Source of the DNA: Deltaproteobacteria bacterium
GTDB lineage: Bacteria > Desulfobacterota > Binatia > Binatales > Binataceae
NCBI GenBank assembly: GCA_021831785.1
Contig: JAKBMB010000029.1
Coordinates: 1-64,000 of the forward strand
Direction of reading: 5' to 3'
Length of the DNA: 64,000 nt
Position numbers and translations under genes: made by a program. Positions 917-5,869 of the stretch are shown piece by piece (position 1 is the first letter of the stretch; every line of letters begins with the position of its first letter). Below the pieces are notes generated by a model that was not told the DNA's origin, did no database searches, and saw nothing but the letters and a program-made list of their open reading frames with translations.

Positions 917-2014
917 TTACAGGTTGAAGAAGTAGTAGAGCTGGAGGAAGAACTGCTGCTCGCCGTAGTAGTTTTGCGTCATCACGTTGGTCGCGTAGTA
1001 GAACCACAGGACGAAGTCGCCCTTGGCGTATTGGATGCTCGGTCCCACGCTGACCATTTCGAGCGCGGTGTTCTTGATCGCTGCGCCGGAATAAGTGTTT
1101 TGGAATACGCTGAAGTCGCTGTCGACGATAACGCCGAGACGCCAGTTCCTGAGCGCCGGGTTGATCTGCTTAAGCCCGTAACTGAAGATGCCGCCGGCGT
1201 CGATATTGTCGCCCGGCATATAGCCGCCTAAGGCGCCTGCCGGAATACCCAACTGGGTTGCACCCTGACTACTAAACACCGCACTGGCAGGCATGTTCGG
1301 CGTGCTGTTCAACTGATGGGTGTAACTGAACCAGGGCTGGAACTCCAGCGTGTTGAGCCAGCCGAGCCCCATGTTGCCGACCGCAAGCTCGTCCATGTGC
1401 GCGAACTGATACCAACCTTCCATCAACCAGGAGAAGTTGTATTGGTTGACCTGGCCGTTGGCCGGAGTGAAGCCGAAGCCGCCCCCGACCGGCAACGAGA
1501 GGTACGGGCCCATGAAGGTTGAGTCGCGCAGGTAGCGGAACTGGTGATACGAGTAGAACATTTCAAGCGGGGTGAACCAGAACTCGGTCGGTCCGGCAAC
1601 ACTGGTGGTCGCGGCGACGATGGGCATGAAGGCGTTGAACGCGACGCGGAAGCTCGGCGTGTCGAACTGGAGCGGATAAATCCAGTTGATGTACGCCACG
1701 TTCGCCCACAGGTTCCCGCCATTGGGCGCTCCAGCCACCTTGTTGCCATTCGGCCCCATGAACGCGCCCTGGCTTATGTAGGTGCTGAACCAGGCGCCAA
1801 ACAGGAGATTTGCCGGCAGGCCGTAGGTGTCAACGTCGTTGTTGTTAAAGAAATTGAAGTATGTGCCAAGGCCAGTGTTCTGAGGAACCGGCGCCGCCGG
1901 CGTGAAGCTGGTGCCTTTGTAGCTATATATCCCCTGCGCGCTGGCTGCGCCGGCGCAGGCCAGCCATAGCAAGCTCGCCAGCGCCAATCCGGTTAAGAGC
2001 CTTTTACCGTTCAT
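917..2014 (-). CDS. Outer-membrane porin-like / transporter-like beta-barrel protein
   Basis: The product is 365 residues with a clear Sec signal peptide: basic MNGKR, a hydrophobic core, and a likely cleavage site after ASA at residue 26. The mature part is rich in Tyr, Trp, Phe, Asn and Gly, with alternating aromatic and polar residues typical of an outer-membrane beta-barrel, and it ends in YYFFNL. The start at 2014 is chosen because GGAGGAGG lies a few bases upstream; an ATG seven codons earlier has no such site. It resembles uncharacterised MetA-pathway/porin-like barrels, but I cannot name a substrate. It stands alone between repeat-rich intergenic regions. Confidence 0.7.
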   Translation of the reverse strand: MNGKRLLTGLALASLLWLACAGAASAQGIYSYKGTSFTPAAPVPQNTGLGTYFNFFNNNDVDTYGLPANLLFGAWFSTYISQGAFMGPNGNKVAGAPNGGNLWANVAYINWIYPLQFDTPSFRVAFNAFMPIVAATTSVAGPTEFWFTPLEMFYSYHQFRYLRDSTFMGPYLSLPVGGGFGFTPANGQVNQYNFSWLMEGWYQFAHMDELAVGNMGLGWLNTLEFQPWFSYTHQLNSTPNMPASAVFSSQGATQLGIPAGALGGYMPGDNIDAGGIFSYGLKQINPALRNWRLGVIVDSDFSVFQNTYSGAAIKNTALEMVSVGPSIQYAKGDFVLWFYYATNVMTQNYYGEQQFFLQLYYFFNL

Positions 2015-2939
2015 GCGTTTCCTCCTCCCGATCATGAAGTCTTCTCACCGTTGGTTATGCAGGGGGCCTGGGAACTCCCCACGGGCCTGCTTACGCATGC
2101 ACTATGACGCTGCCTGCGCCAGAGAGGCATTGACATCCCTACTTGCCCAGGTCAAGAAGCAGATAAAGCTGAGAATAATCCCCCCCGGACAATTACCGCC
2201 GCCTCTCACCAAACGCCTACCCTGCAACCTCACCACCCTACCTGACGCCTCGCCTGCGCTGGCTAACTTTCACCCGGTCTGCCCGCGCCGTTCGCGGCTC
2301 GCTTCGACTTCTTGCAACCCCGCCGCTCCTTCCTGCCCAGCACTATGGATAGCGTGCTTTATTTACCCATCATGCCGACGAAAGTCAATAGTCGCAACTC
2401 CATAGAGCGTTCGTTGTTTTATTCCTCGCCGAATTAGCTCTGGCGGCGTTATGCCCCTAGCGCTGCGGCCTCCCCCTTAGCGCCAAGTTTCTCTGTATGG
2501 ATACGGACCGGGGCGGCCGATGTCAAGCAAATTACGCGCAAATTATTTCAAAACGCCAGACCGGGGGGATCGGGTTCACGGCCGCGCCTTTCCCCCTCTC
2601 CGCAGCGCCGCGCCTGCCAACTCCTTCCCCCGCAGCGGCGCTTTCAGGGCCTCTCCCCCTCGGGCGAGGCCAGCGGCGATGACCACCTCTCCCCGTCGGG
2701 AGAGGTCGCGTCGCGCGAAAGCGCGGCGCGGGTGAGGGACCAATGAAAAAAGCTAAACCTGCTCTCGATAAGCCCCCTCACCCGGCCGCCCCGGCTACCA
2801 TGGGACGGGCTTTTAGCCTGTCATCTTCGGGCAAAAAGCCTGAGCCACGTCCCCGCCACGGGGGGAAGGCCGGGCAGGAAGCCTTCGGCGACGCCTTTCG
2901 AGGGGGCCTAGCGTATGCCGGCGGCCTCGGCGCAGGTGG
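2015..2939. other. Intergenic region with repeats, no gene seen
   Basis: The first 500 bases hold only low-quality open frames without ribosome binding sites. From about 2570 to 2745 there is a copy of the CCTCTCCCC..GGGAGAGG family, and at about 2805-2860 a fragment of a GGGACGGGCTTTTAGCCTGT element that recurs near 62.5 kb. I see no RNA gene. Confidence 0.6.
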
Positions 2940-3305
2940 TTAGCCGGGGTTGAACAGCGCGCGCAGGCGCTCGCGGTCAAGCCCGGCGACCATCTCGCCG
3001 CGGGCGATGACCAGCGGCCGTTTGACCAGGTTCGGCTCGACGGCCATCAGCGCGGTCGTCTCCTCGGCGGACAGGCTTTTGTCGGCCAGCCCCCGGCTCT
3101 TGAAGGCCGGGCTCTTCCGGTTAAGAAAATCGCGCGGATCGCGGCCGCGAAAAAGCTCCTTGAGTTCGGCGGTCGAGAGCGGCTCTTTGACGTAGTCGCG
3201 CTCGTCCAGCTCAACCTTTAGTTCGTCGCGCAAGAAACTTCTTGCGTTGCGGCACGTGCTTCAGGTCGACTTCCATAAAAAGCGCGCCTGGTTTTTCTGC
3301 TTCAT
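2940..3305 (-). CDS. ArsC/Spx-like thioredoxin-fold protein, candidate selenoprotein (in-frame TGA at residue 15)
   Basis: Read from the ATG at 3305 the frame is continuous to 2940 except for one TGA at 3263-3261. With that codon read as selenocysteine the product is 121 residues, a normal length for the ArsC/Spx family. The N-terminus then reads FLWKST-U-STCRNARSFL, so U15 occupies the first position of the CxxC redox motif of Spx-type proteins and C18-x3-R22 matches the ArsC Cys-x3-Arg motif. Downstream are family features: ERDYVKEPLS, and NLVKRP with the conserved Arg at residue 96. A perfect hairpin follows the TGA (separate entry). The alternative is a frameshift: another frame starts MEVDL at 3276 and would need an indel near 3261. 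Selenoprotein status is inference; no sel genes are in the window. Confidence 0.6.
3229..3246 (-). promoter_or_regulatory. SECIS-like hairpin downstream of the in-frame TGA
   Basis: On the coding strand the sequence CGCAAGAAGTTTCTTGCG is a perfect inverted repeat. It gives a stem of seven base pairs with an AGUU loop, extendable by one A-U pair. The loop G lies 23 nt after the TGA. Bacterial SECIS elements are known to be short hairpins inside the coding region with a G in the first two loop positions, roughly 16-37 nt after UGA, so geometry and loop base fit. Function is inferred only. Confidence 0.45.
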
Positions 3306-3749
3306 TTTGATGAATTACCCCCATTTTTGGGAAAATGCCCGCGCAAGCCCCCGCGGCTTGATCATCCGCAACTAAGCATCGCGTCCTTTAGGATAGCACC
3401 CTCGCTCGCCGCGGTCAGTGCAAGTCGAGTGGGACAGGCGAAATGCTTTCGGCTTAAGCGCGCCGAATCTCCCAACTCCTTCCCCCGTTGCAGCACCTCT
3501 CAGCTCCTTCCCCCGCCGCGCCGCTTTTTCTTACTCCTTCCCCCGCTTGCGGGGGAAGGTGGGGAAGGCGGTGCCGGCGCGCTCAGCACCCTCACCCCCG
3601 CCCTCTCCCGCTTCGCGGGCGAGGGAGTAGAAACAGCGCTGCGCGCGCGTCCGCCCTCTCCCGCAACCCTGCGGACGGGCGCCTGGCGTACCTAGCAGCA
3701 GGTTGTCGAGATGGACAATCGCTACGGCTTGGCGGTCAACACCCTGCTG
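3306..3749. repeat. Intergenic region with CCTTCCCCC-type repeats
   Basis: From about 3470 to 3670 this gap holds several imperfect copies of the CCTTCCCCCGC / GGGGGAAGG and CTCACCCCCGCCCTCTCC family. The first 150 bases are upstream of the ArsC/Spx-like gene and contain GGGGG about 14 bases before its ATG. No gene is supported. Confidence 0.6.
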
Positions 3750-4568
3750 CTAGAGGACCGAATCGGGCGTTGTCTTGACGCGCAGCGAGTAACGGCAGTC
3801 GCTGCGATCCAAGCGCACGGAACTGGCGAAGGCTTGAGACAGGATTTCCGAGGTCATTATTTGCCGCGTCGGCCCGCAGGCCGCTACTTCGCCGTCGCGC
3901 AGAAGCAAAACGTGGGAAAAGCTGGGCATGATTTCCTCGACATGGTGCGTCACCAGCACCAGCGACGGTCCGCTGCCGTTGTGCCCGCCGAGCCGCTCCA
4001 GGAACTGGAGGAATCGTTCGCGCGCCACCGGGTCAAGCCCCGCGCACGGCTCGTCGAGAATCAAAAGCTTCGGCTGCGCCATCAGAGCGCGCCCGATAAG
4101 CACGCGCTGGCGCTCTCCTTCGGACAACAGGCGCCATTGGCGGTCGCGCAGCTCGAACAACTCGACCTGGCGCAGGATTTCCGATGCCCGCTCGCGATCG
4201 CGCGGTTCTATTTCGCGCCAGAAGCCGATCATCGCGCTCGCGCCGCTGACGACCGTTTGCAGCGCGGTATCGTGGCCGGGCATCATCTGACGGATGCTCG
4301 AGCTTACCAGTCCCACTCGTTTGCGCAGCTCGCGCCAGTCAAAGCGTCCAAACGTTTCGCCTAAAACCCGGATTTTCCCGGTCGTGGGAGACAGATAGCC
4401 GGTCAGAACGCTTAGCAGCGATGTCTTGCCCGAGCCGTTGGCGCCAAGGATTGCCCAGTTGTCGCCGGCTTCGACCCGCCAGTTAATCGAGCGCAAAATC
4501 GTAACGTCACGCTTGACGCTTAGACCGGCGACCTCTATCACCGGCGGCAAACTGTGCGAATCAGCCAT
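3750..4568 (-). CDS. ABC transporter ATP-binding protein, ModF-like (COG1119 type)
   Basis: This 272-residue protein is a single ABC ATPase domain. It has Walker A GANGSGKT at 42-49, the signature LSEGE at 148-152 in the context LSEGERQRVLIGRAL, Walker B LLILDEP at 168-174, and an H-loop in VTHHVEEI. The LSEGERQRVLIGRAL form is characteristic of the ModF/COG1119 group, often annotated as molybdate-related, although substrates are rarely proven. The start at 4568 follows CAGGGA; an upstream in-frame ATG at 4685 lacks a site and would add an unrelated 39-residue tail. No permease or binding protein is adjacent, so it may act with unlinked partners or in a non-transport role. Confidence 0.75.
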   Translation of the reverse strand: MADSHSLPPVIEVAGLSVKRDVTILRSINWRVEAGDNWAILGANGSGKTSLLSVLTGYLSPTTGKIRVLGETFGRFDWRELRKRVGLVSSSIRQMMPGHDTALQTVVSGASAMIGFWREIEPRDRERASEILRQVELFELRDRQWRLLSEGERQRVLIGRALMAQPKLLILDEPCAGLDPVARERFLQFLERLGGHNGSGPSLVLVTHHVEEIMPSFSHVLLLRDGEVAACGPTRQIMTSEILSQAFASSVRLDRSDCRYSLRVKTTPDSVL

Positions 4569-4891
4569 AGTTCCCTGCCCCAACCAAATCTTAACCTGAA
4601 CCTGACGCGAGTTGAACCTCAGTGCATGGCTTTGAGCCGCGGGCGCCAAAGCCGCCGGCCACCTCCGCCGGCTCATCCGGCCCACGAGGCTTCACATCGA
4701 AGCGCGCGGGATGCGCTGCTTGGCGCTCAATCTCTGCGCTGATGCGCGAGGGCGCTATCCTAAGAACTCTGTTAAGCTGCTCGACACGCTTTTCCTTTGC
4801 GTGAAGCAGGACACGCGGCCGCCGAGCGCGGCGCCATTCTCATGCGCGAACAGGAGCAAGCCGGCATTGCCCGGGTAGAAGGAGACAAGCG
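4569..4891. other. Divergent intergenic region
   Basis: This 323-base gap separates the minus-strand ABC ATPase from the plus-strand cyclase gene and should carry both promoters. I see no repeat and no convincing small gene. GAAGGAGA just before 4892 is the ribosome binding site of the cyclase-family gene. Confidence 0.5.
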
Positions 4892-5869
4892 ATGGGGAAA
4901 ATAGATTTCGCCGCATTGCCGCGTTTTGCCGAATTACCGGTCAAGCCGGGCGCTCCGCCGGAGTCGGCGTGGGGCGTGTTCGGCGATGATGACGAAGTGG
5001 GATGCGTAAACTTGCTGACCGAAGAGGGAGTGGTCGAGGCGGCGCGCCTGGTACGCAAGGGAAAGGTGTTTCGCCTCGACACCAGGATTAACTACGCCGA
5101 CCCGCCGCTTTTCCGGCGCGCTCCGGTGCGGCACAACATAATCAGTTTCGAGCCCTTCGGCGTGCTCGGCCACGACGACTCGCTCGACAACTACAACACC
5201 CAGGAAGGCAGCCAATGGGATGGCCTCGCGCACATGGGGCATCCGCGCCACCGCGCTTTTTACAATGGGATGAAAGCGAGCCAGATCAAAGACGGGCCGG
5301 ACGGCAAATTGAGCATCCATCGCTGGGCCGGCCGGTTTGTCGGCCGCGGGCTTTTGATCGACGCGTTCAAATATCGCGGCGAGCAACAACGCCCGGTCAA
5401 CCCTCTCGATAGCGAGTCTTACAGCCTCGCGGACTTAATCGGCGCGCTTGCCGCACAGGATGCCGCGCTTAAGCCCGGCACGATCCTGCTCGTGCGCACC
5501 GGCTGGATGCGGGCGTATCTCAGCGCGTCGGCCGAGCAGAAGCAAACGATGGCATCGCTTTCCAAACTGCGCTCCTGCGGCATCGAAAGCAGCCGCGACT
5601 TGATGGCCTGGCTATGGGACAACCGTGTAGCGGCGCTGGGCACCGACTGTCCGGCGGTCGAGCCCTGGCCGTGGAGTTTTCAGGACGAAAACGCGCTGCA
5701 CTACCGCGCGCTCGCCCTGCTTGGTCTCCCACTGGGCGAACAGTTCGATCTCGACGCGCTGGCCGCAGACTGCGCGGCGGACCGGCGCTATGAATTTATG
5801 ATGGTTTCGGCGCCGCTCAATCTTCTTGGAGGAATCGCCTCGCCACCCAACGCGGTGGCCATCAAATAA
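4892..5869 (+). CDS. Cyclase-family metal-dependent hydrolase (kynurenine formamidase-like)
   Basis: The 325-residue product belongs to the cyclase family (PF04199), whose characterised members hydrolyse amides or lactones, for example N-formylkynurenine. The metal-binding segment lies at Q108-W-D110 with H114, H117 and H120, a variant of the family HxGTHxDxxxH motif, here QWDGLAHMGHPRH. A second conserved block near residues 200-260 includes LVRTGW and GTDCPAVEPW. The start at 4892 is preceded by GAAGGAGACAAGCG, a strong ribosome binding site. The gene is monocistronic here, with a convergent antiporter gene 52 bases downstream. The substrate cannot be predicted from context. Confidence 0.8.
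   Translation: MGKIDFAALPRFAELPVKPGAPPESAWGVFGDDDEVGCVNLLTEEGVVEAARLVRKGKVFRLDTRINYADPPLFRRAPVRHNIISFEPFGVLGHDDSLDNYNTQEGSQWDGLAHMGHPRHRAFYNGMKASQIKDGPDGKLSIHRWAGRFVGRGLLIDAFKYRGEQQRPVNPLDSESYSLADLIGALAAQDAALKPGTILLVRTGWMRAYLSASAEQKQTMASLSKLRSCGIESSRDLMAWLWDNRVAALGTDCPAVEPWPWSFQDENALHYRALALLGLPLGEQFDLDALAADCAADRRYEFMMVSAPLNLLGGIASPPNAVAIK

Follow-up and report, generated by a model that had tools for sequence, protein, structure and literature searches.

The window, by which we mean the whole 64,000-nucleotide stretch that was analysed, contains on its minus strand a gene whose in-frame UGA is almost certainly decoded as selenocysteine (Sec). The predicted product is a UxxC redox protein that resembles a YffB/Spx-like reductase rather than an arsenate reductase. 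Decoding of codon 15 as Sec is supported by comparison of homologous sequences, and the chemistry, with Sec acting as the nucleophile, is drawn from the family and would apply here by analogy. The gene and its main sites are the following:

2940..3305, minus strand: gene for a predicted ArsC/Spx-like selenoprotein of 121 residues, Sec being residue 15 (translation with TGA as U, Pfam, homologues)
2942..2940, minus strand: TAA, the ordinary stop codon of this gene (sequence)
3263..3261, minus strand: in-frame TGA, predicted Sec codon 15, first position of U-S-T-C (codons of homologues)
3252..3254, minus strand: codon of the invariant Cys18, the second Cys of UxxC and likely the resolving residue (alignment)

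Translation with TGA as U gives a frame of 121 codons (3305..2940, minus strand) with a single internal TGA and the N-terminus MKQKNQARFLWKSTUSTCRNARSFLRDELKVELDERDYVKEPLS... The earlier note on this DNA had described a lone in-frame TGA at the first position of UxxC in a gene of this length; that description holds, and relatives carry TGA at the same site. The protein belongs to the ArsC superfamily, matching Pfam ArsC (PF03960) with 51.8 bits against a cut-off of 24. Annotation routinely truncates selenoprotein genes, and here standard ORF calling without readthrough yields a 97-residue remnant (2940..3233) with a TTG start downstream of the motif, a fragment that lacks the active site.

The AlphaFold model of the window protein has a pLDDT of 91.5 and the ArsC/Spx fold. 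Its best match among solved structures is Spx (1z3e, TM 0.82); it also matches the ArsC-related 3gkx, YffB (1rw1) and E. coli ArsC. Alignment of 39 homologues gives as invariant residues Sec/Cys15, Cys18, Arg19, Arg36, Ser65, Lys69, Leu78, Arg96 and Pro97. The catalytic arginines of E. coli ArsC are Arg60, Arg94 and Arg107. The equivalent of Arg94, R96, is invariant, whereas those of Arg60 and Arg107 are not conserved as Arg. Since two of the three arginines are not conserved, a thiol/selenol oxidoreductase is favoured, with Sec15 as the putative nucleophile and Cys18 as the resolving residue. Membership of the Pfam ArsC family, the position of Sec at that of the catalytic Cys of ArsC and the invariant R96 would also suit a selenoprotein that is a genuine arsenate reductase in function. 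We consider this quite unlikely given the two unconserved arginines, a score of 45.1 bits against a cut-off of 106.05 for the arsenate reductase model TIGR00014, and the presence in some relatives (L098, L099, L100) of a separate paralogue nearer to ArsC. The Spx/MgsR model TIGR01617 also remained below its cut-off (57.6 against 75.05). The protein most likely belongs to the Spx/YffB-like branch of the ArsC family and acts as a thiol/selenol oxidoreductase; it is more probably a YffB/Spx-like thiol/selenol reductase than an arsenate reductase.

An alternative to Sec decoding is that translation stops at the TGA and restarts at TTG 3233, giving a 97-residue protein without the redox motif. ORF callers do choose this start, but the nine codons upstream of the TGA are conserved at the protein level, the second Cys of UxxC is invariant, and the orthologues with Cys at the site are open frames at full length. 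Internal restart was rejected on these grounds and is very unlikely.

Of the 41 genomes of the same family that were examined, 40 carry an orthologue of the gene; seven genomes from three further families in the phylum have distant homologues (37–41% identity). In plasmid records all matches were distant (<60%). Among 47 distinct genomes (from a raw list of 49, with L017 and L019 left out as apparent repeats of L047 and L043) the codon at the site is TGA in 35 and Cys (TGC or TGT) in 12, and nothing else. The TGA copies are the window gene, 27 others from the same family and the seven from other families. The earlier note had proposed looking among homologues for Cys at this position and for conservation of the TGA, and both are found. 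An in-frame TGA that aligns with Cys in homologues is one of the features by which a bacterial selenoprotein is recognised, and the gene shows it. An error in sequencing, or a nonsense mutation that recently made the gene a pseudogene, might be suspected because the assembly is a draft and the gene contains a single TGA. This is extremely unlikely and was ruled out by the conservation of the TGA across independent assemblies, including those from other families; furthermore, the sequence downstream of the TGA is under purifying selection (dN 0.13, well below dS 1.11, for the window gene against G418) and the SECIS hairpin described below is conserved.

The genome from which the window derives (3.68 Mb, 96% complete) encodes selA, selB, selC and selD, the set that the earlier note had named as a check and which is a further hallmark of a bacterial selenoprotein. 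The window has no tRNA; the tRNA-Sec lies on another contig (C13:2830-2921, anticodon TCA), with 71.4 bits against a gathering score of 47. SelA is encoded on C26 (582.5 bits), SelB at C4:203223-205115 (377.8 bits) and SelD directly after SelB (L020, G000:C4:205303-206229, 382.7 bits). This SelD is a selenoprotein too: its gene has a TGA that is read as the U of a G-U-AGK motif. SelA exceeds its cut-off in all 28 family genomes with a TGA copy and SelB in all seven distant TGA genomes, so that each TGA genome has selA or selB over the cut-off. In G221 and G264, both with Cys copies, neither SelA nor SelB was over the cut-off. Genome-wide reassignment of TGA, for example to Trp and without Sec, would explain the open frame alone, but its probability is practically nil, being contradicted by TGA stops (half of the window's long ORFs, 16 of 32, have TGA as their stop), by homologues that have Cys and never Trp at the aligned site, and by the complete Sec machinery.

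A hairpin just downstream of the TGA has the properties of a bacterial SECIS element:

3229..3246, minus strand: SECIS hairpin CGCAAGA-AGTT-TCTTGCG with a 7-bp stem (folding and comparative tests)
3239..3236, minus strand: AGUU loop of this hairpin, separated from the TGA by 21 nt

Published limits for bSECIS elements are a loop of 3–9 nt with G in its first two positions, a stem of 4–16 bp, a spacing of 16–37 nt and an MFE of at most -7.5 (PMC13188914). The hairpin in the window lies within them: it begins 14 nt downstream of the TGA and has a loop of 4 nt that contains G, a stem of 7 bp, a UGA–loop spacing of 21 nt and an energy of -8.2 to -9.3 kcal/mol. No RNA family of Rfam was found in the window at gathering scores. 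Taken alone, the window sequence has an ordinary folding energy compared with shuffles (z 0.08 to -1.46), and a comparative test was therefore used; the signal is a comparative one.

Synonymous codons were permuted within each gene for the distinct copies (the repeats L017 and L019 left out). Of the 35 TGA copies, 32 have a hairpin better than these permutations (p<0.05); none of the 12 Cys copies does. Since the genomes are related, the trials are not independent of one another. The three TGA copies that missed this level (L030, L035 and L057) did so because the stem has a mismatch or a bulge. Synonymous identity at codons +5 to +10 is 0.77–1.00 in TGA copies of the main register, against about 0.46–0.56 in Cys copies. 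The codons used there are mainly GCA, AGA and TTG in the TGA copies, and mostly GCG, CGC and mixed Leu codons in the Cys copies. Furthermore, six distinct stem sequences of the family form 39 of 42 pair cells, exceeding all 2000 shuffles; manual centring of the hairpins biases this test towards pairing. In the distant clade (seven copies) pairing is retained in 92.9% of cells, and two pairs are changed on both sides; compensatory pair changes occur in both deep clades. Cys copies pair in 69% of cells, a level that does not exceed that of shuffles, and all 12 share one broken pair. The centre of the hairpin lies about 1 nt further downstream in L064, L066, L067 and L071, and 1–2 nt further downstream in the distant clade. 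The SECIS element thus appears to survive small shifts within the coding sequence.

The earlier note had read the TGA as Sec and the gene as encoding a Sec protein. A site held only by TGA or Cys, the selA–D genes of the genome and, as independent evidence, the SECIS hairpin all agree with that; in the catalytic sense the product is a putative selenoenzyme. In the mechanism that we propose, the ribosome would reach the UGA at codon 15 of the ArsC/Spx-like mRNA, where SelB, anchored to the SECIS hairpin that follows the codon, would bring Sec-tRNA-Sec made by SelA with selenophosphate from SelD. Translation past the UGA would then give the 121-residue protein of ArsC/Spx fold. Sec15 would serve as the nucleophile of UxxC; its target would be an oxidised substrate, such as a disulfide, and the selenenyl-sulfide intermediate would be resolved by Cys18.

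Tree inference with this position masked gives Sec for the distant clade and for the majority of the family, in which Cys copies arise at several points. Four changes of state are needed, two of them forced by well-supported branches. Since the Cys copies are nested among Sec copies, replacement probably went from Sec to Cys, and the tree suggests that it happened repeatedly. One Cys copy (L029) keeps most of the SECIS hairpin. Outgroup rooting with Cys paralogues has weak support (76/74); on this weakly rooted tree one shared origin of Sec for the two deep clades would be plausible. Close Sec and Cys forms throughout the family offer a natural series on what Sec adds and how it is lost, two of the Cys forms being those from genomes without selA and selB over the cut-off.

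ArsC-like proteins with Sec have been known from marine surveys since 2005–2008. Sec arsenate reductases of the UxxS type were reported from the Sargasso Sea (PMC1088965), and the Global Ocean Sampling (GOS) survey found both UxxS and UxxC types of ArsC, the latter named Arsenate reductase 2 and assigned to cd03032 (PMC2398784). The statement in the earlier note that such proteins occur in metagenomic surveys was therefore correct (PMC1088965, PMC2398784). An arsenate reductase-like UxxC family, NF041106, is given in a review (PMC13188914).

The Sec arsenate reductases (TIGR00014; PMC1088965, PMC13188914) share with the window protein a Sec at the catalytic position of ArsC. They differ from it in having UxxS, whereas the window protein has UxxC with an invariant second Cys and has not conserved two of the ArsC arginines. 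L098 (G121:C22:1579-1908), L095 and L097 represent another ArsC paralogue, one nearer to true arsenate reductase. Its catalytic position likewise has an in-frame TGA, here within UxxS (YHNPG-U-GQSR, HNPS-U-GKSR), which is the known Sec arsenate reductase type. Spx (1z3e, 3gfk) and YffB (1rw1) are the best matches of the window protein in both sequence and fold; Spx has CxxC, in which Sec replaces the first Cys in the window protein, and the Spx model is not reached at its cut-off. NF041106 (ArsC_rel_Se_1) is likewise ArsC-related with Sec in UxxC, but its model, with a cut-off of 85, gives 13.3 bits for the window protein and 21.6 bits for L033, a distant homologue with TGA. The lineage lies so far below this cut-off that we regard it as a new member of the ArsC-like selenoproteins, perhaps a separate subfamily, and thus a new branch of a kind of selenoprotein already known from surveys.

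Arsenate reductase 2 of the GOS survey resembles the window protein at the level of the ArsC-like family and in its UxxC, and comes from marine reads; the two were set beside each other by description only. Its domain, cd03032, we take to be the Spx-like subgroup. The window lineage may be the same as this UxxC group, as far as descriptions can be compared. We found no literature treating ArsC, Spx and selenocysteine jointly. A wider reading, which is speculative and unlikely, would make the lineage a separate, unnamed UxxC ArsC/Spx-like subfamily with Sec ancestral to both deep clades and repeatedly replaced by Cys, a SECIS that slid by 1 nt with its loop kept, and a protein that may be a selenium redox switch of the Spx kind and not a reductase.

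The loci read have no conserved set of neighbouring genes and no conserved operon. In three genomes the selenoprotein gene has, within a few kb, a gene for a conserved protein that starts like a signal peptide and matches no Pfam family:

917..2035, minus strand of the window: conserved signal-peptide-like protein (neighbourhood comparison)
L015 4385..5617; L016 1569..2765 and 4139..5257: relatives of this protein, present twice in L016

Short G+C-rich repeats around CTCCTTCCCCC flank the gene in the window (2600-2780 and 3455-3610) and also occur at 640; this 11-mer has five exact copies in the window, against 0.01 expected.
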